Source: a virus. From it: a stretch of 20,544 nt of DNA. The translations under genes and the position numbers were made by a program. The stretch lies in IMG/VR virus record IMGVR_UViG_3300047668_001543, positions 1 to 20,544 of that record; one strand, given 5' to 3'. This document shows positions 785 through 17,290 of the stretch, one piece after another. Within the stretch, counting starts at the first letter, position 1. Every line of letters starts with the position of its first letter. The notes below the pieces were generated by a model. That model was not told where the DNA came from. It did no database searches and was given only the letters and a program-made list of their open reading frames with translations.

Positions 785-2241
785 TGGCTGAAGAAAACTG
801 GTACGATCCGTTAGTTGATCTTGGTTCAAGTGCATGGGATTGGCTACTTGATGGAGATAACGCTGCGGGTATAGGCAGTCTGCTTTCTGCTGGCGGAACA
901 GCTCTCGGTTTGTTTGAAAATGACCAAGCTACGGCTGGTTACCAAGGAAAAATACCCGAATACACTACCGTGCGAAAACAACTTCCTAACAGTAACCCCG
1001 GTAGAAGGCCGGGAGGCGGTGGTCAGCGGTACTTCACTGACACTTATTATGGACAAACCCCAGAAGATCAACAAACTGTAGGTAGCCTCGCAAATGCTCA
1101 AGCAGCCGCCGATGCCCAAAAGGTGGCTTTAGTTGCCCAAAACCCAGAACAATTTGCAAGGGGCGGCATTGTGGGTGCGTTAAATAGCATGTATGGCGGT
1201 GGCAAAGGGGGCGGTAGCGGGTACGGTAATAGTAATCGCGTGGGGCAACAACTGAGCGGGTCGGCTGATGATATAGGAAGCCCACCTCGCCGCAATCCTT
1301 ATGGAAACGTAGACAACTGGGATGCTTCTGCTTGGCAGAATATGGTAAGTCAGGTTCAAGCCACAGAACCACAAATGAGTGACCCGATAATGACTCAAGG
1401 GGGGCCAGCCGATGACCCAAGATTTCAACCGGGAGGTGCTTGGTATCAAAAACCCGGAATAATACCTTGGGGTAACGACGATATGGCACCACCAGCGTAC
1501 ATAATAAACGACATGGGCAACAGTCCAGCTTGGAAAGAAGCAATGACCAATAAGATGTACGGAAATGCTTTTGCAAAAAGTGGAGTTAGTGTAGAAGAAC
1601 TATATAGAAATGCAGGTATCCCGTTTAAGCCGAACGCTCCAACACCCACGATAAAACCCGACACAAACAGTCCAGCTTGGAAAGAAGCAATGACCAATAA
1701 GATGTACGGAGATGCTTTTGCAAAAAGTGGAGTTAGTGTAGAAGAACTATATAGAAATGCAGGTATCCCTAACCCAAATGTCCCATTGCCCCCATTGCCC
1801 GCAATCATCCCCAACGACGATGATTATGGTAATTATCCCGGTGGGCCGAATAACCCACTGCCCGATGTGTTTACTGGTGGCAGTCAATATTTTGATGAGT
1901 CAACTGGTCAGTATACAGGTGGCCCGAACGCTCCGAAATCAATGCCACCACGAGGCATGGCCCAAGGCGGAATTGTTAACGCGATGCCTAGAGCTTACCT
2001 CAATGGGTCTAGTGACGGCATGGGTGACCAAGTTCCCGCAATGATAGATAACCAACGCCCTGCTAGTCTCAGTCACGGTGAAATGGTTATTCCCGCAGAT
2101 GTGGTGAGTCACATGGGCAACGGTAACTCAGACGCAGGAGCGAAACAGTTCTACGACATGATGGACAGGGTACGAAAAGCACGTACAGGAAACAAACAGC
2201 AAGGCAAGCAAATTAACCCTAACAAGTTTATGCCGAGATAA
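784..2241 (+). CDS. Gly/Pro-rich phage protein with AxGGIV motifs and internal duplication
   Basis: A 485-residue protein, probably virion-associated. The start overlaps the upstream stop by one base and has a purine-rich GAGAGGG about 8 nt upstream. The N-terminal 90 residues carry GYQGKIPEY (52-60) and RRPGGGGQRYFTD (74-86), segments I remember from uncharacterised marine phage proteins. A Gly/Ser-rich linker follows, then two near-identical 35-residue copies starting NSPAWKEAM. AxGGIV motifs lie at residues 125-130 and 393-398. The last 75 residues form the most domain-like part, with LSHGEMVIPADVVSHMG, then SDAGAKQFYDMMDRVRKA; that block recurs in many phage proteins but I know no assigned function. 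There is no signal peptide or clear membrane segment. It could be an accessory tail, head or ejected protein; the sequence does not decide. Confidence 0.85.
   Translation: MAEENWYDPLVDLGSSAWDWLLDGDNAAGIGSLLSAGGTALGLFENDQATAGYQGKIPEYTTVRKQLPNSNPGRRPGGGGQRYFTDTYYGQTPEDQQTVGSLANAQAAADAQKVALVAQNPEQFARGGIVGALNSMYGGGKGGGSGYGNSNRVGQQLSGSADDIGSPPRRNPYGNVDNWDASAWQNMVSQVQATEPQMSDPIMTQGGPADDPRFQPGGAWYQKPGIIPWGNDDMAPPAYIINDMGNSPAWKEAMTNKMYGNAFAKSGVSVEELYRNAGIPFKPNAPTPTIKPDTNSPAWKEAMTNKMYGDAFAKSGVSVEELYRNAGIPNPNVPLPPLPAIIPNDDDYGNYPGGPNNPLPDVFTGGSQYFDESTGQYTGGPNAPKSMPPRGMAQGGIVNAMPRAYLNGSSDGMGDQVPAMIDNQRPASLSHGEMVIPADVVSHMGNGNSDAGAKQFYDMMDRVRKARTGNKQQGKQINPNKFMPR
1519..1769 (+). repeat. Near-identical 104-nt direct duplication, 147-nt period
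   Basis: Positions 1519-1622 and 1666-1769 differ at one base (a at 1564, g at 1711), which changes Asn to Asp. Each copy encodes about 35 residues (NSPAWKEAM to YRNAGIP). The 43-nt spacer encodes a Pro/Lys-rich linker. Conservation at synonymous positions points to a recent duplication or ongoing conversion. Confidence 0.95.
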
Positions 2242-2252
2242 GGGAGTAGAGT

Positions 2253-3215
2253 ATGTCTACGCACACACCGACCACCACTGAGCTACCAAACAGTTCACCA
2301 GACCCCATTAGCACAGAGTCTTCGCTATCAAACTGGGCTGGCGACTATGTAACTGGGCTGCTGGGTCAAGGGCAAGCCCTTACTCAAATGCCTTATGAGG
2401 GGTATCAAGGTGATTTAACTGCGGGTGCAAATGAGAACCAAACGAATGCCTTTGCAGGTATCGCAGGGCTTACGCTACCCACGGGTGGGTATACCGCAAA
2501 TAATAATAGGTTCGATCAGGCTGCTGCCAACCAATACATGAATCCTTATGTTGCCAGTGTGCTTAACCCACAGTTAGCGGAAATGAGCCGTCAGAATCAG
2601 ATACAGCAAGTCAGTGATAATGCGGCTTTTACCAAAGCGGGTGCTTACGGGGGTGGTCGGCAAGCCATTATGAACTCAGAACGCAATGACAACAATGCTC
2701 GCTTAATGAATCAAGCTACACAGGAAGGTTACTCAAACGCTTATAACTCAGCGTTCGATATGTTTACTTCAGACGAAAAGCGTTTAGACGATTCAAATAG
2801 ATTTGCGGCTGACTTTGGACTACAAGAATTGGGTGCCGAGACAGACATGTACGACAATCAGCTACGTGCTGGTGAGATGGAACGGGGAATTACCAGCGAA
2901 GGTCTTGCTGCGGATTACGCTCAGTTTAGAGAAGAACGCGATTACCCCTATAAACAAATTCAGTGGGGTATGGGTCTACTCAACGGTATGCCATTAGAAA
3001 CGCAGAACACAAATTACTCGCAAGATAGTACCCTGTCTCAGTATCTGCAAAATTCAGCGGGTGGTGGAGACCTATTGAGTAGCCTTCTTGGTATATTTGG
3101 TGACAGTGGTGGTAATTTGGCAGTCGACCCCCCCGATGCCCCCGGTGATTTTAGTAACGTCGACATACCTAATTTTGACCAAAGCGACCAAGTAATTGCT
3201 TTAGGTACAAGTTAA
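2253..3215 (+). CDS. Conserved phage protein with YMNPYV and GGGRQAIM signatures
   Basis: A 320-residue protein 11 nt downstream of the preceding gene; GGGAG lies about 7 nt before the ATG. A disordered Ser/Thr/Pro N-terminus (1-25) leads to a segment with YEGYQGDLTAG (48-58). YMNPYVASVLNPQL (95-108) then opens a long, Gln/Asn-rich, probably helical region with GAYGGGRQAIM (130-140) and DNNARLMNQATQ. The C-terminus is Gly-rich with a short hydrophobic LLSSLLGIFG stretch, then Pro/Asp-rich. The combination of a YMNPY motif with a Gly-rich GGGRQ loop is one I associate with a common but uncharacterised marine phage protein, usually next to the AxGGIV proteins seen here. A virion or ejected-core role is inference from position only. 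Confidence 0.85.
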   Translation: MSTHTPTTTELPNSSPDPISTESSLSNWAGDYVTGLLGQGQALTQMPYEGYQGDLTAGANENQTNAFAGIAGLTLPTGGYTANNNRFDQAAANQYMNPYVASVLNPQLAEMSRQNQIQQVSDNAAFTKAGAYGGGRQAIMNSERNDNNARLMNQATQEGYSNAYNSAFDMFTSDEKRLDDSNRFAADFGLQELGAETDMYDNQLRAGEMERGITSEGLAADYAQFREERDYPYKQIQWGMGLLNGMPLETQNTNYSQDSTLSQYLQNSAGGGDLLSSLLGIFGDSGGNLAVDPPDAPGDFSNVDIPNFDQSDQVIALGTS

Positions 3216-3260: not shown

Positions 3261-6200
3261 ATGATACCCCAAGGCGGAATAGACCGAAATATTCAGGCTG
3301 CAAAGCTAAGGGCGGGAAGTAACCCTAATGTATTAGCGCAAGAGTATAAGAAAACTCAGTCCATAGAGACTTTGTTAGCTATGCAGTCTTTAAAAGAAGA
3401 GTTGGGAAAAAGGGAACAAGAAATTGCCGCACAAATGCAAGGGCCAGAAGGTAGCATAATGGAGCAAACAGAAGCTCAATTAATGGCTCTGGTAAATCCT
3501 CAATCAGACAGCACTAATGATGTGTTAGGTCAAATGGCCCCCGTAATGGATCGTAGAGGCAAAGAGGAAGCAAAAGCTCAAATGATGCCCAGTGGCCCTA
3601 AACCTCCACCTCCCATTCAAGGCAAAGCCCCAGCCCCACCAAACGGCGCACCACAAGGAATAGCGGGACTTAATCCCCGTATGGGTATGGCTGAAGGTGG
3701 TATTGTCCCTCCCGCTGATCGTTATGCCGAAGGTGGATTCACAAAACTGCCTCCTCAAGACCCGACACCCGATTCCCTGAAATGGTTAATGACGGAAGCC
3801 CCTGAGACTACGGGTTATACAGCAGAACAGTTAACAAATGCCAACAACGTGTTTAGAGATTCTAACGGAAGAATGCAGATGGGGAGGCCACAGGGTATTC
3901 TAAAAAACCACATAGAGGGCTTAGACGGCCCAGACACAACTGACTATTCTGCACTGATACCATCTCAAGAAGAACAGGATGCAAGGGCAACTGATTTTTG
4001 GGGATCAAGCCCAAGTCTTATGTCTATCAACGCCTTATACCGAGGGGTTGCGCCAGAAGGACATTATACTAGATACTTAAATGATATAGAACAAAACACA
4101 GCGAGGGGTATTTTAAACGGAACTGTTGAATATACTCCAGACACTAGACTAGATAATCCTCTTTATGACCCCTACACGGGTTTGTATAGAAACGCGCCAG
4201 AACCCTACGTCCCCGGTACTCCAACATTCGGGCCTCAACCTGTACCTGTAGATCAGGGTAACAATCAAGTTGATGGATTTACGGCACCAATTGACTCAAA
4301 TAATCAAAACAACAATCAAGCTCCTGTTGTTGAATTGGCTTCATCAAATAATCAAAACAACAATCAAGCTCCTGTTGTTGAAACACCTTCATCGAATAAT
4401 CAAAACAACAATCAAGCTCCTGTTGTTGAATTGCCTTCATCGAATAATCAAGCATTACCGTATGGCGCTGATTTTTCAAACAAATCTGAAATCGAGATGA
4501 TAGATGAAGCGCTTGAAGCAGGTGTCACGCCAGAGCAGATTATCACCCATGCTCCTATGTTGTTGGAAGGTGGTTTGACTCCAGAGGGGCTTTCCTATTT
4601 AGAAGATACAACAGGTTACTCTCCAGACGGCATGGCCGAAGGTGGAATGGTTGGTTACGCAGACGGCGGAGAAGTTGCAGGTGAAGGTGAAGGTGAAGGT
4701 GCAAGCACTTTAGAAGGTGTTAATAGGATAATGGCGAAGCTAAGAGAAGGCGGAATGTCCACCAAAGATTTGCTTCCTATAAGAAAAAAACTCTTGCAGG
4801 ACTTGGCTGCAAAAATGGGGGCAAACACTGAAGCAATTAACGTGGCTTCCAATCCGAGAGGAGGAAGCTTGAATACGGCATTCGCGGCAGCGAACGCGCC
4901 AGAAAGAGAAGAAACCCCAAGCAAAAAAGCCGCATCCTCTGCTAGAGTCTACGATGACCCCACACAACAATTAATAACTGATTTGGGCAATGGGCGATCT
5001 GGCGTTCTTGGCCCTGATGGACTTACTTCAGATCAAGCAACTGATCCGACTTTAGAATTGCTTGATGTGTTTAGTCCTTATACAGATACAATTAATCGTG
5101 AAAATGCTGTGGGCCAAAAAATAAAAGACAATGTAGACAACTACATGACCCCACCCGATGCGAAAGTTGCGCCTCCGTTACAGCTTGGTCAGAGACCTGC
5201 ACCCCGTTCAGGTATAGCTTCGGCACTTGCTGCCCCCAATCCTAGCTCAATGCCTCGGTCAGAGATGTCGTTGCAGCAAAGAATGGATGATAGTGTTGCG
5301 AAAAGAATGCAAGCTGCGGGTTTACCAGCACCAGCACCGCGACAACCTTCCGCTATGACGGCAGCTCGTAAAGGGTTACAAATAGGTCGCCCAGCTATGG
5401 CAGCGGCAAACGCTCAGAGAATGGCTCCAGCCACCGCTCCCCCTGCTGGAATACCCGCCGCGATTCCGCAGCAAGGCGCAACTATCTCTTCACAAAGACC
5501 GCCTTTAATGGGGGCCGCTAACAATCCCGCGACTACCTCAATCACCGCCCCCACCTCTGCAATGGGAGCAACTGACACAACTGACACAACTGACACAACT
5601 AGCACAACTGCCGCAACTCAACCTGCTGAAACTGGATTAGCTGCTTTGGCTAAAGAACTTAAAGCTAACCGAAACGCCGCTACAGCCTATAACGCTAAGT
5701 TAAACGACCCTAAAAAATCAGCATGGGAGAGGTTCTCCGCTGGAGCTAGAAATGCAAGTGACGCGGGTGGAGGCACTGCTCTTGGGAATTATTCAAAAGG
5801 TAGCGCGAGTGAGCAAGCTAGGCAGGAACGACAGCAGCAAATGTTCTTAAACGAAAACGCTAGTATGATTGGTCAAGAAATGGAATACGGTTTGACTTCG
5901 GCCAAAAACAAAGCGTTAGCTGACCTAGCGGTTTTAGAATCACAGCAAACGGCGTTGGCTTCAAATGCTCAATATTTTGCCCAAGTTAACGCAACATTGG
6001 AAGATTTTTTAGCGGCTCGACAAGAGGCTATACAAAACAACGTGAGAAGCTCCGCCGATCCATCAGAAGACCCTGAACAGTACAACTTACTAATGGCAAA
6101 GTTTAACGAAAGTGCAGACGGGAAATATTATGCTAATGCAATTGCAAGGACAAACGCCATACTTAATAATATACAAAATCAGATGGGTGCAAATCCAACT

Positions 6201-6266
6201 ACACCGAAAGCTCCTGCGGGGGGTGTTAGTCAAAACCTACAAAATCTTATAGCACAAAGGCCATAA
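3261..6266 (+). CDS. Large low-complexity and helical phage protein, AxGGIV motifs
   Basis: A 1001-residue protein with AGGAG 7 nt before its ATG. The N-terminal 60 residues are predicted helical (KKTQSIETLLAMQSLKEEL), followed by a Pro-rich tract (about 113-135). AxGG motifs occur at 144-149 (AEGGIV), 156-161 (AEGGFT), 459-464 (AEGGMV) and 467-472 (ADGGEV), the last followed by an EGEGEG run. Asn/Gln-rich 16-residue repeats occupy 346-398, and TDT repeats lie near 771-783. The final 200 residues are rich in Ala, Gln, Asn and Glu and probably form long helices or coiled coils (NRNAATAYNAKL to ARTNAILNNIQNQ). There are no cysteine clusters or enzymatic motifs. The layout (helical ends, long flexible middle) fits an internal or ejected virion protein placed next to the giant gene, but that is inference. 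Confidence 0.85.
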   Translation: MIPQGGIDRNIQAAKLRAGSNPNVLAQEYKKTQSIETLLAMQSLKEELGKREQEIAAQMQGPEGSIMEQTEAQLMALVNPQSDSTNDVLGQMAPVMDRRGKEEAKAQMMPSGPKPPPPIQGKAPAPPNGAPQGIAGLNPRMGMAEGGIVPPADRYAEGGFTKLPPQDPTPDSLKWLMTEAPETTGYTAEQLTNANNVFRDSNGRMQMGRPQGILKNHIEGLDGPDTTDYSALIPSQEEQDARATDFWGSSPSLMSINALYRGVAPEGHYTRYLNDIEQNTARGILNGTVEYTPDTRLDNPLYDPYTGLYRNAPEPYVPGTPTFGPQPVPVDQGNNQVDGFTAPIDSNNQNNNQAPVVELASSNNQNNNQAPVVETPSSNNQNNNQAPVVELPSSNNQALPYGADFSNKSEIEMIDEALEAGVTPEQIITHAPMLLEGGLTPEGLSYLEDTTGYSPDGMAEGGMVGYADGGEVAGEGEGEGASTLEGVNRIMAKLREGGMSTKDLLPIRKKLLQDLAAKMGANTEAINVASNPRGGSLNTAFAAANAPEREETPSKKAASSARVYDDPTQQLITDLGNGRSGVLGPDGLTSDQATDPTLELLDVFSPYTDTINRENAVGQKIKDNVDNYMTPPDAKVAPPLQLGQRPAPRSGIASALAAPNPSSMPRSEMSLQQRMDDSVAKRMQAAGLPAPAPRQPSAMTAARKGLQIGRPAMAAANAQRMAPATAPPAGIPAAIPQQGATISSQRPPLMGAANNPATTSITAPTSAMGATDTTDTTDTTSTTAATQPAETGLAALAKELKANRNAATAYNAKLNDPKKSAWERFSAGARNASDAGGGTALGNYSKGSASEQARQERQQQMFLNENASMIGQEMEYGLTSAKNKALADLAVLESQQTALASNAQYFAQVNATLEDFLAARQEAIQNNVRSSADPSEDPEQYNLLMAKFNESADGKYYANAIARTNAILNNIQNQMGANPTTPKAPAGGVSQNLQNLIAQRP
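4296..4454 (+). repeat. 48-nt tandem repeat, about 3.3 copies
   Basis: Units start at 4296, 4344, 4392 and (partial) 4440. Each full unit encodes 16 residues of the type SNNQNNNQAPVVELAS. Copies differ at only a few bases (tcaaat/tcgaat, and the last three codons of the unit). It is a coding repeat, not an intergenic array, and changes in copy number would preserve frame. Confidence 0.95.
5571..5609 (+). repeat. 9-nt tandem repeat (Thr-Asp-Thr)
   Basis: Three copies of actgacaca followed by one variant (actagcaca) encode TDTTDTTDTTST inside a Thr/Ala/Pro-rich linker of the 1001-residue protein. Probably a flexible spacer between the middle and the helical C-terminal part. Confidence 0.9.
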
Positions 6267-6279
6267 AGGATTTAAATAA

Positions 6280-9200
6280 ATGGCAGAATACACTAGAGAG
6301 CAACTTGTAGACGCAGCTTACCGAGCGTATGACGCTGGAGATATTACAACTGCCAACGAAGCCGCCGCCATTGTTACTCGCATGGATGGCCAAGCTGCCC
6401 AAGATGTTGAAATGGCTGAGTTGGAAAAGGCGGCGGAGCTAGAGAGAAGGGGTAAGTCTGGCTTTTTTGAGAACGTAGGCGGTGGCTTTGGGGCAGGTTT
6501 TGTAGGAACACTGGAATCGGCTGCAACAGGAGCCGCAACGCTTCTTGATGAACAAGAAGAATTAGCCACTCGTAAGGTCATACAAGACTTAGCTGATTCT
6601 GCCACGCCTGAATTCGGAGACCAAGACTCAATAATTTACAATTTATCCAGTGGTTTGGGATCAGTCGCTGGTTTTGCCCTCCCTGCTATTGCCGCAAGTG
6701 CGTTGGCTCCCGCAGGTCTAGCCACCAGTGCAGTGGGTCTTGGTATCGGTTCCTTAATGGGAGTAGGTACTCAAGCAGGTGAAGCAAGTGAACGTGCCAG
6801 AGCGTCTGGCGTTAGCGAAGATGTGCGTAATGCCTCCATTAGAACAGCCTCTCCAATAGGTTTAATAGAAGCTTTACCGTTTACCCGAGCATTTAAAGCT
6901 TTCAAGATTAACCCCGTAAACGACCTTATTGAAAAGTTTGGCGTAAAAGAAGTAACCAATTTAAAAACACTTATCGCAAGTGCTTCATTTACAGGTGGTG
7001 CCGAAGCCGCTCAAGAAGTAGCACAAACATTTGTGCAGAACGCTGTTGAAAGTGGTTATAACCCTGACAGGTTACTGAAAGACGATGTAGCTGGGGCGGC
7101 GGGTTACGGATTTGGAACGGGTGCAATTGTTCAGGCTATAACTGAGGCATTTACCCCAAGAAAAGGCGCAGGTGGGGCTAGCTTTAGAGAGCGCAATGAA
7201 GATAACTTACCTGTTCCTCCAGATGACGGTACTGTTCCTCCAGATGACGGTACTGTTCCTCCAGACGAGACTCCACCACCCTTAACTTCTCAAGAGGAAG
7301 TGTTTGACGATGACGTAGATGCGCCTTCGCTGAGTCAAGTGGAAGAAAACGATGCTATTTTGCGAGAAGTGCAAGCGGCACAAGCGGCACAAGAAAAAGC
7401 TGACGAAGAGATAGCTACTGCAAACGTAACAAAAATGTATCGTGAATCTATAATTGATACCGTGATGAAGCAGAACAGAACTGCAACTCAAGAGCAATTA
7501 ATAGCCGCTGTTGCAGTGGAACTTAAAAATAAAGATCAAAACTTTGAGTTGCTTCCTGCCGAATTAGAAAGAATACGAAAATTTATTAGCGACAACGCAC
7601 CTGACCCCAGCGGTGACGATGCGAGTGAGCAAACTAACCCCGCCAATGTCCTTAATGTTGAAGCCGAAGCCGCTACCGAAGCTGAACCAGTTCAACCTGA
7701 TTTGTTTGACACACCAGCAGCCCCTGTTGTGGAACCTGCCGCACCCGCTGCCGTGGAACCTGACGCACCTATTGATTTTGATGTAAGTAAACCAGAAGAC
7801 GCTAGTGAAACTTTTAACGAGGCCGATAACCAGATTGTTACAATAACAGACCCCGCTTCAGGAGGGTCAATACAAATGCGAGTAAGACCCGACAACAAAC
7901 CTGCTTCGGTACTTTCGTTATCTGTGCCAGAAGAGTCTCGGGGGAAGGGGATAGGGGAAAAGTTGCAGCGTAAGGTATTGGAAATGTACCCAAATATGGA
8001 GGGTCAAGTTTCCAACAAGGCCGCAGCTACAACAGCTTATAGGATTGGTCGCAGACCTTATGGAGAACCTGACGCTACTTTAGAAGATGTTTATGCCAAA
8101 ATAGATAGTGCCACATCTGTGAACCTGTTAAGTGATCTTGCTCAACCAAGCCCAACAGAAACCACACCCCCTACCGTAGCCCCTGTTGCCGTAGCCCCTG
8201 TTGTGGAACCTGCTGTAGCCCCCGCTCAAGGTACGGAGACTTACGCTGTTGTCACCTCTGACAAAGAGAACATTGCACCTTTTACTGTTGTAACCACTGA
8301 AACTGACTTAGAAGAGATTCAACTAAAGGGCAAAGCAACAAAGCTTAAACCGTTTAGGGTGTTTTCTCCAAACTCAGCAAAATCAAATCAACGTCTTGGT
8401 GATTTTGATACTTTAGACGAAGCTAACACGTTTGCCTCGAATCAAACCCAAAAGGGTTCGCTGGGCGAAAATATGCCGTTGGTGGTTAAAAAAGCGGTAG
8501 TAGTTGATAAAGCGGTACGAGATTTAAGAGAGGCTCAAACTCCAGTTCAGGCTGAAAATGAACTAAACAAAATTAAGGCGTTTGTAGCCGAAAATCCACA
8601 GCCTGAAGGTGCTGGAGTCGAAGTCGAAGAAGATATTGAAGCTATTTATAACTCGGATGGTTCTGTTTCAGTAGGTGATATTACAATCACCGAGGTTTCA
8701 GGAGACGACTCCATATCAACGTGGAACGTAAGCTCTCCTCGCGCTAAAGAAGCTGATATTGAAGGTATTGAAGACGAACAATCGGCTATTACCGAAGCCC
8801 AAAATATTATATTCGCAAGGGGGGAGGGCGATGCTACCATTTTACCTGACAACGGAGGAGTTGAACCTAGCGTTTCGGATAGTGGGATTGCAGAAGAAGC
8901 CTCGCCACCTACCAACGAATCTAACAAAACTGAACCTAGCCCAGTGGGAGGAGGTGAGGTTGCTACTAATAGAGCTACAATCTCAAAAGCTCCAGAGTCG
9001 GATTCATTAGATATTAATGTCGCACCTGAAGCCGTAGCCGACGACGAAGTTGGTGCCTCCGGTACTACTGAAGCCAAAAAGGAAAAACGCAAAGCGCGAA
9101 AACAAAAACAAAACGCTAAAAAGAAAGACTACAAAAGAATAGAAGAGGCCAGAAAAGAATTCAATCCCGATAGTCTATTTGACGACGATGTTCAATACAC

Positions 9201-12200
9201 CACTTTAGAGCCAAATGATTATGGCACTGATGAGGATTTGGAAACAGTTGCTAACATTATTCTAAACAATGGGAATAAACTTACTCGTCCAACAAACGAA
9301 TGGGATGAGAGCAGATTTCCAACAATAAATAACGGGGAAGCTGCCCAGTTTTATTTCGGCAGAAATAAGGGCGCGAGGATAGTGGACACCATACTTGAAC
9401 TTGCACATGAAGTGTCTTATCAGCAACCTCGTCTAAAAGAAGGCCCAGACCGCGAAGGTCTTTCTGAAGCAGAAATAAAGTATTTTGAAAGCTCCAGTGC
9501 AGGTAACGCAGGCAAAGCTATAAAATGGGTGCAAAAAAATCTAAGCGCGGAAATAAATGAGTTTTTAACTAGAGAACTTAAAAAACCTGCCATCGCATAC
9601 GAAAAGTTTATTAAAGACGGGGCTTACTCTAATCAGATTGATCTAAAAACTTTAGACAGCAAAGCTAAACAAGAAGCTCAACAAAAAGCTGACGATAAAG
9701 CAATAAGCGCACTTGTTAATAATGTTGATATGCAACTTAAAGCGGGTGGCACCTTATCCGCAGAGAAAATAGCCGAGTATGAAGCAAGCCCACAGGCGGC
9801 TGAAACTAGAGCCGCTGCCATAGCCGCTGAAGAAGCTAACAAAAAACCTAAGAAAACTAAAATAATTGCTTCTTCGGCTGATTCTTCTGTAGGTTTAAAT
9901 ACAGTAATAGAAAATGAAGCGACTAACATTTCCGCTCAAGAGGAATTGAACGCAGACTATACGGACGCTGTTTCTGAGATACCAACAAACGCCGAGTTAG
10001 AGTCTGGGGAAATATTGTCAGGTGAGGGGATAAGAGAGGCGGTTTCTGAGTCGGCAGAGGGTTCTGTTGAAATAGATCAACAAGCAAGAGATGCTGAAAA
10101 TAGGTTTATTGATTATGTTGTGATGCTGGGAGACGATTTAGAGATAGCCTCCAGTGCAATTAGTTCGTTGGATATGCCCGTTCACCCTGCGGTGCGTAAA
10201 GCTTTAGAAAAAGGTGACCTAAAAACTGCATACGAAATCATTGCAGCCACATCTCAAAACCCACTTATACGGCGATTTGCTTTAGCCATAAGTAAAAATA
10301 TCGGTAATACCACTGTTGAGATAGTAGAGTCTTTAGAAAACACAGACTCAAGCGGAAACTTTTCACCTAAGAACAACAAGATAACTTTACGCGCTAGTGC
10401 GGCTAACTCAACGCAAGTAATCATACACGAAGGTATACACGCTGTTATTTCGGAAACTTTGAACAACAAGTCGCATCAATTAACCAAGCAGCTAAATACA
10501 ATATTTGAACAGTCCCGCGACAAGTTAAGTAGCTATTACGGTTCTCAGAATTTAGATGAGTTTATATCAGAAGCTATAGGTAACCCTGCTTTTCAAAGAA
10601 GATTAGTCGCCATATTTGCGGATAAATCCGCCAAAGAAAGTTCTTGGGACAAGTTTGTTACTGCTATATCTAACTTCTTAAAGCGAATGGTAAGAAAACC
10701 CCCTTCAATTAACACGTATGAAGACTTTAATAACGTCATAGAAAAGATGTTGTCTCCAGCCCCTGATTCGCGTTCTGGAGAAGACTTAAACATAATTACG
10801 CAGAACAACAAAGAAGAGCAGGTGCTCGCTCAAATCGGAAGAAATGTTTTTGCTGGTTCGTCCGAAGAAAAATCTAAATCGGTAGCGAGGAAAATTTTCG
10901 ATGCCATTTATTCAAAACAATTTCTCCATGAAGACTTGCCAACTTTTGTAAAAAGCAATTTCGGAGGGTTTTTAAGTTCTCATATGACAGCCGAAGTTAG
11001 CGAAATAGCCAAAGTCCCTTCGGCAATGGAGCTTCACAATCTTTTTAACGAGCAAGAAGGCTCTTACGGTATAAAACAAGAGTTTTTGAGAGCTATTATC
11101 GAACCGATAGCAGCGTGGAGTGGTAAAAGTGCAAATAAAACTAAAATATTTAATTGGTTAGTTCACGACAGTACGCGGAATCAAGTTGACCCGTCCATGC
11201 CTGAATTTATTGAAACCAATGGCATAAAAGAGCGATATTATAAAGACGAGAAGTATCTTATATGGAAAGATTATCAAGATGCTTGGGACGCTTTGGGGCC
11301 AGAAGGTCAAAAACATTACGTCACCCTACGAAAAACTTACCGAAAAATTTATGATGAAATGCTCGAAAACATTTATTTTAAAATAGACAATTTGATTGAA
11401 GATAAAGCTGTGCGAAAAAGTTTAAAAGCTGATGTTTTCAAAAAAATGTTTGATAATGGTGTAATTGAACCGTTCTTTCCATTAACACGTTCTGGTAAAT
11501 ACTGGATTGAATACAATACTATTGGTGGTAAAAGCGGGATTCAATCTGAATATGTAGTACGTGCATTTAAAACAAAGGAAGACCGAGATAACTTTATAAG
11601 AGTTCTCGAAAGCAACCCTGAAGTTATTGATGTTCCCACTATAAGCACTTTTCGATCTGAGCAACTTAAAAAACCAACTGGGGACAAAGTACCGCCAACT
11701 TCTTTCGTTGCTAACTTATTAAAATCTTTGGACAAAAACTTATCAAACATAGAAGGAGTGGACAACGCCGCTAAAGAGGCCATTTCACAAGACATAACAA
11801 AACTGTTTCTTGACACGTTACCAGAAGCTTCTTTTATGAAATCCTTGCAAAAAAGAAAATCTGGCAAAAGTGGATTGGCTGAGTTGTACGGCTCCACTGA
11901 GGATGGTATAGCAGGATTTAACGAAAGTGCAATAGAAGCTTTTAATGAACGCGCATACAGTCTGCAACGTCAAAGCGTCAGTATTAAATACTCAGAAATG
12001 CTACGCAAGCAACTTGATGTTGTTGTTGGCGAAATAGATGAAGCGAGAAGAAAGGGAACACTAACTGACGAAAACGCGCTGATATTAAAAACCGAGTGGG
12101 AAAAAAGAGTTAAGTTTGCCATAGAGCAGCCCAACACTCCGATGAATAAACTGGCTCAAGGGCTTAACAGATTTGCATTCTTTGGCACTATTGGATTTAA

Positions 12201-13839
12201 TGCGTCTTCGGCTCTCGTTAATACTACACAAATTCCTTTAGTGGTTTTACCTTACATGGCGGGAATAACGTCAGTGGTAGATGCTACTAACTTCTTATAT
12301 ATAGCCAACAAGCTGGTTCTTAATTCCAGCAACCATCACAAAATAGAAACCGTTAACGGTCAGTCATTCGATCAGAAAACTTATATACCTTCTGTCGATA
12401 ATCAATACGTTCAAGACGCTGATGGGAATTTAACGTTACGAGAAGATTTGAACATCACTGATGAGCATATGCAGTTGCTAAGGGACGTTTTGCCTATAGT
12501 GCAAGCGGGTAAAAAATACGGTCTTCTTAATAGGACATTGCTCAATGACCAACTCAGCGTTACTGAGAAAGGTGGAGTGGAAAGCGCAGCGGATAAAGCC
12601 ACTAGATTGTCAGCTTTGTTTTTTCACACAACGGAACGATACAATCGGCAAATCGCCTTGATTGGTAACTTTCTAAATCAAAAGAGCGCACTTGAAGCCA
12701 AAAGAAAGTCAGGTTCCAATAAAGAAAAAGACCTTACAGATGCAGAACTTATCAAGTTAGCTGTTAATAATGCCTTGAGCGACACTCAGTTAACTAATGG
12801 GGGAGCAACTTTACCCACAACGGCTCGTTTTGCCCAGCAGAATATCGGTCGCGTGGCAATGATGTATAAAATGTTTGGCATACAAATGTGGTACACCCAG
12901 CTAAAATTAATGGGGCAAATGGCTAGGAACTCTAGGTTTTTTGAGGATGGCGATGCTGAAGCGTTTAGAACAGCCCGACAACAAATGGGTGGTATGCAGT
13001 TAGCGGGACTGTTTCTTTCTGGTATTGCGGGTAACAGCTTCTATGGAGTTGCTGCTGCTTTGTACAATATGTTTCACCCTGACGATGAAGAAGACGCGGA
13101 TACTCAAGTTCGTAAAATTTTTACAGAATTGGTTTACAAAGGTGGCGTTAACGAGCTATCAAAAGTTCTGGGAGGAGAGGGTTTTGATGCGGCTACAAGA
13201 ATAGGTTTGTCCAACCTTTTAATTGCCCATAACCGTTATGATTTTGACCCCAGTGCCGAGAAAAGTTTGGTTAAACTTTTAGGTGGCCCCACATACGGTG
13301 TTGCAAGCAAAATGGGAAGAGGGTTTGGGGACTTGTATGAAGGCGAATATGTTCGTGCTTTTGAAAGCATCGTGCCTTCTGCGTTTGGTAACATGTCAAA
13401 AAGCTATAGGTATGCTACAGAAGGCCCATCAACGAGACGGCGTGATCCAATAATGGGTGAAGTGGGGAATGGATTAGCTGCCGCACAATTCTTTGGATTT
13501 GCCCCTGCCGAGTACAGTTACAATCAAGAACGTAACCAAGCTTTAAAAGGAATTGACACCAACATTAGTGAGCAAAGCACAAAACTAAAGAAGCGATTTT
13601 ACTTAGCTTACGCTTACGGGGATACTGGTTCATTGCAAGAAATCAATGAGAACATAATAGAGTTTAATCGAAAACATCCCTTTGCAAGCATAAATAGTCA
13701 GAGTATAAAAGACTCTCTTGAAAGACACATGGCCAGTACAATTGCTATGCACAACGGGATTTTACTTAGCCCTAAAAACAGGCGCTATCTAAATGATCTT
13801 TCGAGGGAAATGGAATCAGGTAAGAGTATGTTCGATTAA
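6280..13839 (+). CDS. Giant polyvalent-type phage protein with GNAT-like and HEXXH zincin segments
   Basis: A 2519-residue protein (about 275 kDa), 13 nt after the previous gene, with AAAGGAT before its ATG. In order: a helical EQLVDAAYRAYDAGD segment (8-22); a Gly/Ala-rich hydrophobic region (about 123-162) that could insert in a membrane; acidic Pro-rich linkers; a compact GNAT-like segment (about 528-610) with the acetyl-CoA loop RGKGIG at 554-559; linker and small alpha/beta segments; a Lys-rich stretch; a zincin segment with HEGIH at 1383-1387 and candidate third ligands E1427 or E1431; a long helical region with IEPFFPLTRSGKYW (about 1729); and a C-terminal helical, partly hydrophobic region from about 1960 (FGTIGFNASSALVNTTQ) like LPD38-type domains. 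Polyvalent proteins of this kind are thought to be co-injected with DNA and to act against host defences. The domains are visible; delivery and targets are inference. Confidence 0.9.
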   Translation: MAEYTREQLVDAAYRAYDAGDITTANEAAAIVTRMDGQAAQDVEMAELEKAAELERRGKSGFFENVGGGFGAGFVGTLESAATGAATLLDEQEELATRKVIQDLADSATPEFGDQDSIIYNLSSGLGSVAGFALPAIAASALAPAGLATSAVGLGIGSLMGVGTQAGEASERARASGVSEDVRNASIRTASPIGLIEALPFTRAFKAFKINPVNDLIEKFGVKEVTNLKTLIASASFTGGAEAAQEVAQTFVQNAVESGYNPDRLLKDDVAGAAGYGFGTGAIVQAITEAFTPRKGAGGASFRERNEDNLPVPPDDGTVPPDDGTVPPDETPPPLTSQEEVFDDDVDAPSLSQVEENDAILREVQAAQAAQEKADEEIATANVTKMYRESIIDTVMKQNRTATQEQLIAAVAVELKNKDQNFELLPAELERIRKFISDNAPDPSGDDASEQTNPANVLNVEAEAATEAEPVQPDLFDTPAAPVVEPAAPAAVEPDAPIDFDVSKPEDASETFNEADNQIVTITDPASGGSIQMRVRPDNKPASVLSLSVPEESRGKGIGEKLQRKVLEMYPNMEGQVSNKAAATTAYRIGRRPYGEPDATLEDVYAKIDSATSVNLLSDLAQPSPTETTPPTVAPVAVAPVVEPAVAPAQGTETYAVVTSDKENIAPFTVVTTETDLEEIQLKGKATKLKPFRVFSPNSAKSNQRLGDFDTLDEANTFASNQTQKGSLGENMPLVVKKAVVVDKAVRDLREAQTPVQAENELNKIKAFVAENPQPEGAGVEVEEDIEAIYNSDGSVSVGDITITEVSGDDSISTWNVSSPRAKEADIEGIEDEQSAITEAQNIIFARGEGDATILPDNGGVEPSVSDSGIAEEASPPTNESNKTEPSPVGGGEVATNRATISKAPESDSLDINVAPEAVADDEVGASGTTEAKKEKRKARKQKQNAKKKDYKRIEEARKEFNPDSLFDDDVQYTTLEPNDYGTDEDLETVANIILNNGNKLTRPTNEWDESRFPTINNGEAAQFYFGRNKGARIVDTILELAHEVSYQQPRLKEGPDREGLSEAEIKYFESSSAGNAGKAIKWVQKNLSAEINEFLTRELKKPAIAYEKFIKDGAYSNQIDLKTLDSKAKQEAQQKADDKAISALVNNVDMQLKAGGTLSAEKIAEYEASPQAAETRAAAIAAEEANKKPKKTKIIASSADSSVGLNTVIENEATNISAQEELNADYTDAVSEIPTNAELESGEILSGEGIREAVSESAEGSVEIDQQARDAENRFIDYVVMLGDDLEIASSAISSLDMPVHPAVRKALEKGDLKTAYEIIAATSQNPLIRRFALAISKNIGNTTVEIVESLENTDSSGNFSPKNNKITLRASAANSTQVIIHEGIHAVISETLNNKSHQLTKQLNTIFEQSRDKLSSYYGSQNLDEFISEAIGNPAFQRRLVAIFADKSAKESSWDKFVTAISNFLKRMVRKPPSINTYEDFNNVIEKMLSPAPDSRSGEDLNIITQNNKEEQVLAQIGRNVFAGSSEEKSKSVARKIFDAIYSKQFLHEDLPTFVKSNFGGFLSSHMTAEVSEIAKVPSAMELHNLFNEQEGSYGIKQEFLRAIIEPIAAWSGKSANKTKIFNWLVHDSTRNQVDPSMPEFIETNGIKERYYKDEKYLIWKDYQDAWDALGPEGQKHYVTLRKTYRKIYDEMLENIYFKIDNLIEDKAVRKSLKADVFKKMFDNGVIEPFFPLTRSGKYWIEYNTIGGKSGIQSEYVVRAFKTKEDRDNFIRVLESNPEVIDVPTISTFRSEQLKKPTGDKVPPTSFVANLLKSLDKNLSNIEGVDNAAKEAISQDITKLFLDTLPEASFMKSLQKRKSGKSGLAELYGSTEDGIAGFNESAIEAFNERAYSLQRQSVSIKYSEMLRKQLDVVVGEIDEARRKGTLTDENALILKTEWEKRVKFAIEQPNTPMNKLAQGLNRFAFFGTIGFNASSALVNTTQIPLVVLPYMAGITSVVDATNFLYIANKLVLNSSNHHKIETVNGQSFDQKTYIPSVDNQYVQDADGNLTLREDLNITDEHMQLLRDVLPIVQAGKKYGLLNRTLLNDQLSVTEKGGVESAADKATRLSALFFHTTERYNRQIALIGNFLNQKSALEAKRKSGSNKEKDLTDAELIKLAVNNALSDTQLTNGGATLPTTARFAQQNIGRVAMMYKMFGIQMWYTQLKLMGQMARNSRFFEDGDAEAFRTARQQMGGMQLAGLFLSGIAGNSFYGVAAALYNMFHPDDEEDADTQVRKIFTELVYKGGVNELSKVLGGEGFDAATRIGLSNLLIAHNRYDFDPSAEKSLVKLLGGPTYGVASKMGRGFGDLYEGEYVRAFESIVPSAFGNMSKSYRYATEGPSTRRRDPIMGEVGNGLAAAQFFGFAPAEYSYNQERNQALKGIDTNISEQSTKLKKRFYLAYAYGDTGSLQEINENIIEFNRKHPFASINSQSIKDSLERHMASTIAMHNGILLSPKNRRYLNDLSREMESGKSMFD
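7213..7271 (+). repeat. 21-nt tandem repeat in the giant gene
   Basis: Units begin at 7213, 7234 and 7255 (last one partial) and encode VPPDDGT twice, then VPPDET. They form an acidic proline linker between the N-terminal hydrophobic region and the rest of the giant protein. Confidence 0.9.
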
Positions 13840-13955: not shown

Positions 13956-14177
13956 TCACAGAATTCTCCAGATACGAACACCGTACCGCTCATTTTCTAT
14001 AACAACTGCTGTTTTTATGGTGATATTTCGCTTTTTAAACAGGTTGTGTGCCTGTTTTTTAGCTTCAGTAGTGTCAATACAGGGTAAAAAGAAAGATGCC
14101 CCCACCACAAACGGCTTAATTGCAACCGAAATAGGGATGGTGTCGGGGGCAAGATTCAATACACCCTCATTGTTCAT
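13956..14177 (-). CDS. Small conserved-looking phage protein, 73 aa
   Basis: The start overlaps the stop of the upstream 87-residue gene by 11 nt (ATGAACAATGA), so translation is probably coupled; a GGTGGG lies about 13 nt upstream, too far to be a strong Shine-Dalgarno sequence. The protein has a hydrophobic first half with VGASFFLPC (about 25-33), a Lys-rich helical segment (TTEAKKQAHNLFKKRN), and a C-terminal beta-like end ENERYGVRIWRIL. A short protein of this shape (SFFxPC, then GVRxWR near the end) is one I have seen beside phage replication genes, without a known function. It is the last gene of the minus-strand unit. I assign no function; it could be a small nucleic-acid-binding protein, but nothing proves it. 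Confidence 0.65.
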   Translation of the reverse strand: MNNEGVLNLAPDTIPISVAIKPFVVGASFFLPCIDTTEAKKQAHNLFKKRNITIKTAVVIENERYGVRIWRIL

Positions 14178-14430
14178 GGTCTAGGATGCACCCACCTATT
14201 AAGCTCGCTGATTGATTAGAGGTCTTTACGTTTTCGCACAAAACCAAAGCGTACTCTTTTGCAAACGTGAACTCTCTAAAATACTCTCGCCAGCGAGTGT
14301 GTTCTTCAATATGATACTTGTTAAATCCCAACAAAGAGTACCGTAAATGGACAACGTACTTATATCCAAAAAGTGTAAATAACCAATTAGACTTTTCAAT
14401 TATCACTCTAGGGTTAACCATCATCCTCAT
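14167..14430 (-). CDS. Small phage protein overlapping the primase-helicase end, 87 aa
   Basis: This frame starts inside the last codons of the primase-helicase gene and ends inside the start of the 73-residue gene, giving a chain of overlaps typical of coupled phage genes. Three ATGs are possible (14430, 14424, 14421); I chose the first, but none has a well-spaced Shine-Dalgarno sequence, so re-initiation after the upstream stop is likely. The protein is rich in aromatic and basic residues: WLFTLFGYKYVVHLRYSLLG (about 17-36), then KYHIEEHTRWREYFREFTFAKEYALVL, a compact alpha/beta-like composition without cysteine clusters. I recognise the general look of a short uncharacterised phage protein but no function. 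Alternative: a non-coding overlap; against this, the composition looks protein-like along its full length. Confidence 0.7.
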   Translation of the reverse strand: MRMMVNPRVIIEKSNWLFTLFGYKYVVHLRYSLLGFNKYHIEEHTRWREYFREFTFAKEYALVLCENVKTSNQSASLIGGCILDHEQ

Positions 14431-17290
14431 CCTCGTCTGAGTTGTAATATATCACTAAGCAGTTTGTCACCGAAGCGTTGGCCATACCCGTATTGGCATA
14501 CATCCTCACTCTTTTAATCTCGCCTTTGCACTCAGATACCATGTCTTCTAAGAAGGATGTCGTGTCTAACTGACGCTCACCAAACCACTTGTTCAAGGCA
14601 TTTGTTGATATACTCATCGTGTTAGTGTCTTGATCTTGCCGAATAACCAATTTGCCCCTCGGCGCTGAAGATGGAACAAAATTCGCATCGTATGTTGACA
14701 TAGTTTTGCCACCTCTCATTACTAACATGTTACTGTAGTTATCGTTAATAAAGTCGCCAAGCTGTTCTTTAGCTGTCTTAACCCGTACCTCACCTCTGCT
14801 TTTATTTTCTAAAACTAACGTGCCAACCCAGTTTTTAAGCTTACGAATATCATAAGGGAGAAGTCCAATCTCTATCGCAATCATAGTCCCCGTGAGAACG
14901 CAGGTAATGTGAGCAGACCAGTACCTATTTGAAGCATCTAATCCGTAAGTCTTGTCTACCCACGCTTGCACCTCTATTAAACGCTCCTTAACAGCGGGTA
15001 AATTAGCCATAACGTGGCGTATATAAATCGGCCCTGCGTGTCCGTAGTGTTCTTCCATTTGTCGGTTAAACTCTTGAGTTTCAAAGGTATCGTCAAAATG
15101 AAACTTCTTAGCGCGGTACTCCATAACCCTCTGAGCTTCAGCCAAAGGTGCGTCCTTATACGCACTAACCTTGTTGATTACGCTTGTGTTTCCAGTGCTA
15201 ATCGAAAGAAAGGCCCAAGGCTCCCCTCTTACACGCGCCCTATTGGAGACTCCCCCCATCCTGTCTCGTTGCTTACCGTCAGCACTACTTGCATCATAAA
15301 TGTGATCGCTAAGAGGTTTCCCTTCAAGATTAGTTATCTCATCAACCAGATAGGCTATGTTCTTAAAAGCCTCCGCTCTGTTTAACTGAGCGTTTTTAGT
15401 GTCTCCCGCTTTAATTACAAGGTCTTGGTATTTGCCCCAAAGCGTAGATGCCGCAAACATAGAGGTGGACTTACCGTAACCTGTGTTCTTGTTCCATATA
15501 TGAAAAGACGCTGACGATAGCCCCGACATATACTGCATAAGAGGTGAGCCGAAACCACTCCCAACAACGTACTGATGCATCTCCATCCCGTCTCTGTTAT
15601 AAAAGTTAATCATGTTTTTCCAACCGTCCAATGTTCCTTTTTGTCCAAACATAGGGAAATACTCCTGTGTGACAGATGATGGGTAGTTTGAGCTAACTCC
15701 AGTAGCGGAGTACCTCTTATTACCCGCGACAAACGCTTGATCGTTCTCTGCCCAGCCGAATTGTCGGCAAGCGTCTTTAGCGGCAGCTTTGTGTTGTAAA
15801 TGATTTATCCATTTCATAGAGTAATCCTGTAATGCACCTATCTGGTGTGTAACCACTCCCTTCATAGCCAAGGCTTTAATAAGCTCTTGTTTCGACATGA
15901 CCGCAGCTATGGGAACTGTAAACGTGACCATTTCATCGTGCGGTAAATGTAGACAATAAACCACACACTCTCCCTGCTCTGGGTCTCTTACCCTTTCTAC
16001 AATGTATAAGTCGTTCTCATAAACACATTTTTCTACAACGTCTCCTTGTTGATCTGTGTCTTTTACATATATCCCACCCATCTTTGGTCTGAAATAAGGT
16101 CTGGGGTACTCGGGTATGGTAACAATCCCTGTTGATTTTTCTTCTTCGGGTAGCATGACAACACCTTCATGCACCTTTACCGCCTTTGTTTCCTTCGGCT
16201 CTTTCGGCTTTTTCGCCACTACATTGTCTTCGGGGGTGGCTTCCAAAACCCGATTACCTAATTGAATGGGGGCTGTGATCTTACCCCAGTGTGGGCAGTC
16301 GGGGCAGACTTTTGGATTCAGGTCGTTAAAAGTAGTGCAGTGATACGGCTTACCATAAAGATTGTCTAACTTCTTATAGGTCTCTTCAAGATTGTAGTCC
16401 GGGTGGTCTTTTGATATTTTCTTTGCCCATTTTTCTTTGTCAGTGCATTGGGCAACGATTGAAAGCCCAGCTCTCCACAGAGGTTCTTCAATAGTGGCTT
16501 GCTCTTTCGCTATAATGCCCAGTTGGTTGCAGCCTTTTCCCGCAATGGTTTTGGACATTAATAATTTAAAATCGCCTTCGGTATTGCCAGCCAACCTATC
16601 CCTCGCGGGGTCACTTCCCGCAACAGCGGGTTGGTAAATACGAGCAACTGGTATCGGGTCATCACCGAGAAGTTTTGTAAATTCATCAAAGTCTACTGGC
16701 GGCTGAATCCCGTCTCCCAACATGAACACTGGAGCGGGTGGATCATCTTTGTAGTTATGAGTTTGGGGAAGTCTTAGTACCCTAGCACCATCGGCTGTTA
16801 CCGCCAAATCGGTGAGCATGTCTTGTTTTATTGTAAGATGTTTTAGACGCTCTGCTACGGGCTTCCACTCTTCGTAACTAACTGATTCGGTAAACGTCCA
16901 GTAAACATGCAGCCCTCTGCCAGAACAAACTAACGTAGGTGCTGGTAATTTATTCCCCTTGCAAAAATTCTGTAGTGATGAAGTGGCAGTGGCTCGGTCT
17001 TTATATTTTTTTGGTTTCTCTCCCTCTTTTAAAGTCTCCGTACCACAATCCAAGTCTAAGAAAAACGAACTCAAATATTTAATGTTGGGTACTGTTCGGC
17101 TTTGATCTGTTTCAAATGTGGCTAAAGCAAAGTATGTATCATATCCGTTACTATCTAAATCCATCGCAGCTTGTATTGCTAAATGAGAAGTTTCGTACAA
17201 CTTTTGTCTAAGCTTGCCGTCCTTCGCTGCGAAAATGCAATACCATCCATCGTCTGGGACTATTGCATCCATGAAGCGTTTTGCGTCCAT
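14414..17290 (-). CDS. AEP-type DNA primase fused to DUF927-like helicase
   Basis: A 958-residue replication enzyme that should lay primers and unwind DNA at the phage fork. N-terminal primase: FFLDLDC with D79 and D81 (metal-binding DxD), SGRGLHVYW with H128 (nucleotide-binding motif) and DGARVLRLPQ (168-176) match the three archaeo-eukaryotic primase motifs. A cysteine-bearing linker follows (C254, C318, C329, C332, in CTTF...CPDCPHWG), which could bind zinc or an iron-sulfur cluster. After a disordered, Lys/Glu-rich segment (350-395) comes the ATPase: Walker A TGYGKST (603-609), Walker B YLVDE (647-651) and an ISTGN sensor-like element (697-701), as in DUF927 helicases. The C-terminus ends in an acidic DEDEDDG tail. 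AAGGGG lies 7 nt before the ATG. An intrinsic terminator sits just upstream, so expression may rely on read-through. It overlaps the next gene. Confidence 0.9.
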   Translation of the reverse strand: MDAKRFMDAIVPDDGWYCIFAAKDGKLRQKLYETSHLAIQAAMDLDSNGYDTYFALATFETDQSRTVPNIKYLSSFFLDLDCGTETLKEGEKPKKYKDRATATSSLQNFCKGNKLPAPTLVCSGRGLHVYWTFTESVSYEEWKPVAERLKHLTIKQDMLTDLAVTADGARVLRLPQTHNYKDDPPAPVFMLGDGIQPPVDFDEFTKLLGDDPIPVARIYQPAVAGSDPARDRLAGNTEGDFKLLMSKTIAGKGCNQLGIIAKEQATIEEPLWRAGLSIVAQCTDKEKWAKKISKDHPDYNLEETYKKLDNLYGKPYHCTTFNDLNPKVCPDCPHWGKITAPIQLGNRVLEATPEDNVVAKKPKEPKETKAVKVHEGVVMLPEEEKSTGIVTIPEYPRPYFRPKMGGIYVKDTDQQGDVVEKCVYENDLYIVERVRDPEQGECVVYCLHLPHDEMVTFTVPIAAVMSKQELIKALAMKGVVTHQIGALQDYSMKWINHLQHKAAAKDACRQFGWAENDQAFVAGNKRYSATGVSSNYPSSVTQEYFPMFGQKGTLDGWKNMINFYNRDGMEMHQYVVGSGFGSPLMQYMSGLSSASFHIWNKNTGYGKSTSMFAASTLWGKYQDLVIKAGDTKNAQLNRAEAFKNIAYLVDEITNLEGKPLSDHIYDASSADGKQRDRMGGVSNRARVRGEPWAFLSISTGNTSVINKVSAYKDAPLAEAQRVMEYRAKKFHFDDTFETQEFNRQMEEHYGHAGPIYIRHVMANLPAVKERLIEVQAWVDKTYGLDASNRYWSAHITCVLTGTMIAIEIGLLPYDIRKLKNWVGTLVLENKSRGEVRVKTAKEQLGDFINDNYSNMLVMRGGKTMSTYDANFVPSSAPRGKLVIRQDQDTNTMSISTNALNKWFGERQLDTTSFLEDMVSECKGEIKRVRMYANTGMANASVTNCLVIYYNSDEDEDDG

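Follow-up and report, generated by a model that had tools for sequence, protein, structure and literature searches.

The virion RNA polymerase (vRNAP) of phage N4 is known to be injected. A part in injection has been ascribed to its N-terminal region, and the protein is reported to be packaged unprocessed despite having a zincin (PMC5512222). When the 2017 survey of polyvalent proteins searched with the N4 N-terminal region and the polymerase domain, it reported hits to nothing beyond the RNAP module of related phages (PMC5512222). In CsCl-purified particles of Burkholderia phage JC1, 51 unique peptides came from the giant gp69 (PMC9144972).

We analyzed a 20,544-base virus record without host information (the window), which derives from a short-tailed (podovirus-like) phage of an environmental sample and encodes a 2519-residue protein, hereafter the giant (Table 1). 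A ribosome-binding-like AAAGGA lies 8–13 bases 5' of its ATG, and no rival ORF of comparable size overlaps the gene, the largest on the other strand inside it being 148 residues long. The giant is the final gene of a plus-strand run (b, c, d and the giant), an arrangement kept in relatives and probably corresponding to a late operon. The final ~95 residues of gene b are kept in 28 relatives and the remainder is not conserved; recognizable conservation of gene d is confined to its N-terminus; and gene c is a candidate for a smaller ejection or virion protein. At the left edge of the window, an open-ended ORF (2–784) encodes proline-rich repeats (PPEEPPEE..., PPVVPPVV..., PGEVPGEV...).

The opposite strand 3' of the giant encodes a DUF927 primase/helicase-like protein, small proteins (one of them DNA-binding-like) and a SNF2 helicase. 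Pseudomonas phage Rollin, the nearest isolate for the DUF927 protein, also encodes a related giant. An 87-residue ORF (14167–14430, minus strand) is present only in the near-identical contig L088 and absent from the family loci. Four records from other metagenome samples (L088, L089, L090 and L091) match the opposite-strand half, from ~13.9 kb, at 99.5–100%, so this half is not an assembly oddity. Three weak matches to contigs of metagenome-assembled genomes (MAGs) are likely viral contigs in bins, and we therefore claim no host for the virus.

Table 1. Features of the window (nucleotide positions refer to the window, residues to the giant).
Feature	Residues	Position	Strand	Remarks
Gene b		784–2241	+	AxGGIV/AxGGMV motifs
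Gene c (320 aa)		2253–3215	+	42–49% conserved within the giant's family
Gene d (1001 aa)		3261–6266	+	AxGGIV/AxGGMV motifs; equivalent position in relatives
Giant gene (2519 aa)	1–2519	6280–13839	+	Open over 2519 codons, ATG start
N-module	~60–300	6457–7179	+	Conserved, hydrophobic, all-helical
Variable segment	~301–1275	7180–10104	+	Acidic, few order-promoting residues
GNAT-like segment	~500–625	7777–8154	+	RGKGIG at 554–559
Recurring segment	~1007–1150	9298–9729	+	phmmer, about ten relatives, best E 7.8e-8, weak conservation
Zincin metallopeptidase module	1281–1520	10120–10839	+	Motifs, model, weak profile match
HEGIH	1383–1387	10426–10440	+	Predicted zinc-binding and catalytic motif
EFISE	1427–1431	10558–10572	+	Neither glutamate varies across the 36 aligned sequences
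C-module	1553–2519	10936–13836	+	LPD39/PLxRFG type
LPD39 (PF18858)	1616–1707	11125–11400	+	Pfam 29.3 bits, cut-off 27
PLxRFG-type motif, PLTRSG	1734–1739	11479–11496	+	
Zobellviridae-like region	1888–2514	11941–13821	+	hhalign to internal virion protein C-terminus
DUF927 primase/helicase-like protein		14414–17290	-	Nearest isolate relative Pseudomonas phage Rollin, 26.6% identity

Searching phage records with the whole protein returned 28 matches, every one to the C-terminal third at 20–25% identity, with annotations that include PLxRFG protein and DarB-like antirestriction. As a single sequence, the whole giant retrieved zero relatives from viral contigs; the productive query was an alignment of its C-terminal 980 residues with six proteins of this kind, which yielded 80 related viral loci at 30–40% identity. 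A complete giant gene, encoding 1929–2696 residues, is present in 35 of these loci. The relatives retain the order gene b (C-terminal ~95 residues), gene c and giant, all on one strand; their opposite strand encodes the SNF2 helicase, the primase, protein i and small genes, and one longer relative has structural-protein matches upstream. The first-pass annotation had suggested a distinct subtype beside AxGGIV proteins; a more apt description is a single large aquatic-phage family whose gene neighbourhood is fixed.

An alignment of 36 sequences reveals three blocks kept in nearly all members (residues ~60–300, ~1281–1520 and ~1560–2519) and a variable region between the first two (~301–1275). 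The conserved parts are probable delivery modules, not effectors. The homology of the window giant itself at its N- and C-modules is detected at the profile level, and since E-values of single profile–profile comparisons are not database E-values, we relied on reversed and unrelated profiles as controls.

The AlphaFold2 model of the C-module is confident, with a pLDDT of 81 and a pTM of 0.81. In a Foldseek search of viral models, this module matched many LPD proteins and, further down the ranking, a protein annotated as Internal virion protein D together with Zobellviridae relatives of it, a lead that we followed with a sequence-level comparison to the Zobellviridae. The C-module profile aligns with a ten-protein Zobellviridae profile over 553 columns, colinear to both C-termini (hhalign 99.1%, E 7.8e-19), and such comparisons ranged from 98.6 to 99.3% (E 5e-20 to 8e-16), as against 0.1–0.2% for reversed profiles and at most 0.4% for three unrelated phage profiles. 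A Zobellviridae HMM recovers 42 family members at E<1e-3 and does not match the window giant alone at E<10; only the profile–profile comparison is strong. By this comparison, the last ~630 residues of the C-module are homologous to the C-terminus of the Zobellviridae internal virion proteins. LPD39 proper lies outside the match, which begins at residue 1888. The relatives of the Zobellviridae phage ICP2 were taken from phage records, as a scan of viral contigs with ICP2 found nothing.

For other candidate relatives of the C-module, profile comparison detected no match to T7 gp16 (0.2–0.4%) or to the N4 vRNAP (0.1–0.6%; 0.3–0.6% for its C-terminus), and led us to reject JC1 gp69 (0.1%), which has the N-module in common instead. 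Against PDB structures, the best C-module match has a Z-score of 7.3 over 99 residues and the matches are helical membrane proteins; scores in this range mean only a common arrangement, and we therefore make no fold claim.

The N-module is all-helical in the predicted model of the relative L066 and displays a conserved pattern with the closing motif G..E..QE......QN.... Residues 121–160 include zero charged residues and have a mean Kyte–Doolittle value of 1.29, and only one 19-residue stretch, at residue 125, exceeds 1.6. Its profile matches nine N4-like polymerases at 49% and 39 diverse N4-like N-termini at 92% (hhalign; 94% with four more), compared with 0.2–0.3% for reversed profiles, the match spanning ~100–175 columns with E-values from a single comparison. 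An N4-type HMM also matches the giants of SopranoGao (L003, E 1e-15), Mwe-JY07 (L005, 5e-12), 1F273_PE002 (L004, 4e-9), JC1 (L205, 6e-6) and douglas 12A4 (L002, 5e-5), and matched no decoy or reversed sequence. At the level of profiles, the N-module is thus a relative of the N4 vRNAP N-terminus.

The N4-type N-module occurs in the giants of several unrelated 55–62 kb podophages. Contigs of ~26–64 kb (L260–L269) match only part 98–221 of the N4 N-terminal query, with proline-rich linkers after it, and are possibly further users of the module.

Two distant relatives of the giant have been detected in virions. Besides JC1 gp69, which shares only the N-module, gp60 of phage H66 matches the C-module HMM at E 9e-34, clearly shares only that module and is annotated in its record as 'verified by mass spectrometry as part ...'. 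The presence of these distant relatives in virions, together with ends that match N4 vRNAP and internal virion proteins, makes delivery of the window giant with the DNA plausible, and we infer that it is packaged in the virion.

Between the N- and C-modules lies a predicted zincin. All 35 complete relatives carry HExxH, which EFxxE follows in nearly all carriers of the module, and the invariant columns of the 36-sequence alignment are H, E, H, E, F and E; one glutamate of EFISE is likely the third zinc ligand. In the L066 model, this region has three strands besides its helices, which include the HExxH helix and others after it, a topology that agrees with the description of polyvalent metallopeptidases (MPTases; PMC5512222). 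Likeness to the lethal-factor catalytic domain is weak, at the right place and a statement of fold only (profile E 0.05; structure Z-score 5.4 over 141 residues, r.m.s.d. 6.6). The zincin profile clearly matches RHph_TM3_14A (98%) and probably the N4 vRNAP (hhalign 76%, with HExxH aligned to N4 HELVH). Judged by its zincin, RHph_TM3_14A is the closest relative in culture, and its C-module matches at 100%. Matches to Rollin and douglas are weak (6–8%) and no relation is detectable to the HExxH regions of SopranoGao (0.7%) and JC1 (0.3%), for which reasons we do not claim a single zincin lineage across LPD39 giants.

The middle of the protein is presumed to combine linker and cargo slot. It measures 459–1152 residues in relatives and carries a net charge of -0.089 per residue in the window giant (residues 301–1275) versus -0.001 for the C-module. 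Much of the equivalent part of the L066 model has a pLDDT below 50, and it also contains helical, better-predicted blocks. A Pfam scan of the middles of the 36 members identified ART-PolyVal once (L052) and one marginal family. At 78% overall identity, the giants of L047 and L052 are set apart by a single 156-residue insertion, which is the ART-PolyVal domain (L052 residues 1079–1234) and sits immediately before the zincin-core strands; in the RHph_TM3_14A giant, an InPase lies upstream of HExxH. As far as sequence comparison goes, these data indicate a variable slot with one clean effector insertion.

In the window giant, the sole candidate cargo is the GNAT-like segment, a weak match. Within the entire chain, GNAT scores E 0.21, and the isolated segment matches four GNAT models at E 0.004–0.013 (Acetyltransf_7, E 0.0044), all below curated cut-offs (17.8 bits for the best, with a cut-off of 27); the segment has no match in phage records and weak matches in the PDB, and any role that it may play is presumptive. 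Methylase–helicase domains are absent in a Pfam scan of the whole giant and its pieces. In many podophages (loci L204, L107, L202, L200, L201, L003 and L093), a stand-alone GNAT gene is separated by a few genes from that of the giant or internal virion protein, examples being CRP-5 gp41, P12053L gp44, SopranoGao_10 and RHph_TM3_14A EVB41_087, whereas the window has its GNAT-like segment within the giant itself.

These results bear out much of the layout proposed by the first-pass annotation: the 2519-residue frame is real, with 35 complete relatives, and so are the hydrophobic N-terminal region (uncharged at residues 121–160), the acidic linkers, the zincin and the LPD-like C-terminus. The GNAT-like segment that it named retains RGKGIG and weak matches but stays below every cut-off, and its statement that residues 620–1340 are unrecognized is largely right, except that 1281–1340 belong to the zincin and ~1007–1150 recur weakly.

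We propose, with a probability of roughly 0.7, that the giant is a virion-packaged ejection protein like the N4 vRNAP or internal virion proteins, equipped with a metallopeptidase and an exchangeable cargo slot. It would be packed in the head via the C-module and/or the N-module, exit first, before the DNA, and cross the envelope, in a manner resembling the usage of N4 vRNAP or gp16-like internal virion proteins. The N-module may take part in translocation and help the giant across the envelope, and the C-module may contribute to packaging and to the ejection conduit; these steps of packaging, exit and envelope crossing are suggested by homology. The zincin is predicted to be an active metallopeptidase, most likely cutting its own chain, either inside the head or once injected; the cut would free the segment upstream of the zincin, thereby releasing cargo. 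The homology of the modules and the invariant active site are supported by the alignments; the order of ejection and the self-cleavage are what we infer. Self-cleavage in particular is a conjecture, prompted by the invariant active site and by a proposal in PMC5512222, and it is uncertain because the N4 vRNAP is packaged whole despite its zincin; the cut may occur only after injection, or the protease may target a host protein. Weighing against the proposal are also the occurrence of ART in only one of the 36 members, the distance of both relatives detected in virions, the failure of the Zobellviridae HMM to match the window giant alone, the short span and single-comparison E-values of the N-module match, and the undetected relation of the C-module to T7 gp16 and to the N4 C-terminus.

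The reading nearest to this proposal, that the giant is a purely structural ejection protein whose middle is a flexible spacer devoid of enzymatic cargo and whose zincin is a maturation protease, denies only the enzymatic cargo and overlaps with ours in all else, so that confidence in the two is not exclusive. The acidic middle with few order-promoting residues, the largely low pLDDT (<50) of the equivalent L066 region and the lack of domains in most members agree with a spacer; the GNAT-like motif of the window giant, the recurring segment near 1007–1150, the helical, better-predicted blocks of the L066 middle, the ART of L052 and the enzymes of more distant giants do not, and we would sooner doubt a purely structural role than adopt it. 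The opposite emphasis, in which the main job of the giant is to deliver enzymes (GNAT, zincin, LPD) that disarm host defences, draws on LPD39 and zincin being typical polyvalent domains (PMC5512222), on ART-PolyVal in one relative and on P1 DarB, a comparable head-packaged giant that is antirestriction (PMC9024508). The first-pass annotation had likewise linked the polyvalent type to countering host defences, a link that is unsupported because no antirestriction or anti-CRISPR domain is recognized in the giant. With GNAT below threshold, and with a middle that varies and is mostly unassigned across the 36 members while the delivery modules are conserved, we consider an anti-defence role unlikely.

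The resemblance of both the N-module and the zincin to the N4 vRNAP raises the question of whether a divergent N4-like RNA polymerase is hidden in the middle. We find this barely credible, given that the middle profile scores 0.1% against the N4 RNAP core, that the middle shrinks to 459 residues in relatives when the N4 core has ~1100, and that it is the least conserved part of the protein. An intracellular late protein that stays out of the virion, such as a processing protease or a scaffold removed before maturation, would accommodate a zincin acting during assembly, and the proteomic data cover distant relatives only; those relatives were nevertheless found in purified virions and the modules are homologous to virion proteins, which makes such a protein improbable.

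The informative part of the giant is its chassis, with an N4-type front, an internal-virion-protein-type back and a zincin between them. Relatives of the N4 N-terminus are now found in a large aquatic-phage family and in the giants of several isolates, alongside an internal-virion-protein C-module and an invariant zincin, and the vague label 'large polyvalent protein' can be replaced by a testable assembly of a packaging end, a translocating end, a protease target and a released part, which, if true, would reveal the place in which phages in nature insert foreign domains that are to be injected. More tentatively, and at somewhat less than even odds, a single delivery chassis may extend across unrelated podovirus groups, combining an N4-type module, a slot, a self-cleaving zincin and a C-module, with enzymes swapped in the slot and released inside the host by the zincin. 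The cargo would then be an RNA polymerase in N4 and an ADP-ribosyltransferase, a pyrophosphatase, a methylase/helicase or perhaps a GNAT in others, and a single injection machine would serve in one use as the polyvalent protein and in another as the virion RNA polymerase.

Among known systems, the window giant resembles at its C-terminus the PLxRFG/LPD39 giants of 55–65 kb podophages, namely those of H66 (gp60) and Rollin (Pseudomonas), SopranoGao (Klebsiella), douglas 12A4 (Vibrio), PBC5 (Sinorhizobium) and RHph_TM3_14A (Rhizobium). The C-modules are homologous over 640–950 residues at only ~22–25% identity, the giants are likewise the last gene of the virion operon, and in several of them HExxH or HExxxH precedes the C-module. 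They often carry a methyltransferase, helicase, transglycosylase or InPase, whereas none of these is recognized in the window giant. The Zobellviridae internal virion proteins (ICP2, CW02, VpV262, Cobavirinae; ~1400–1670 residues) share the colinear C-terminal ~630 residues and the late-operon setting; the N-module and the zincin are undetected in them (0.1–0.4%), that of ICP2 has no HExxH, and in several a separate GNAT gene lies upstream.

The N4 vRNAP (gp50) and its Schitoviridae counterparts have an N-terminal module followed by a zincin, in the same order as the window giant, and the N4 gene follows two smaller virion proteins, a similar operon position. Unlike the N4 vRNAP, the window giant has no RNA polymerase core in its middle, and the two C-terminal regions are without detectable relation. 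The DarB-like JC1 gp69 (4515 residues) has the N4-type N-module in common with the window giant and, unlike it, contains SLT, methylase/helicase, LPD3 and LPD38 domains and a C-terminus unrelated by profile. P1 DarB, which is large, packaged in the head and believed to enter the cell (PMC9024508), is alike by description; it is a methylase–helicase antirestriction protein, and those domains are not found in the window giant. The label polyvalent-type, given by the first-pass annotation, is a fair one for a multidomain protein at the end of a probable late operon: the LPD and MPTase domains of the polyvalent proteins of Iyer et al. (2017, PMC5512222) are present as LPD39 and zincin, and of the several disparate activities that define the class, the second catalytic domain (GNAT) is sub-threshold. 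As described for polyvalent proteins (PMC5512222), the window giant is encoded close to late and virion genes.
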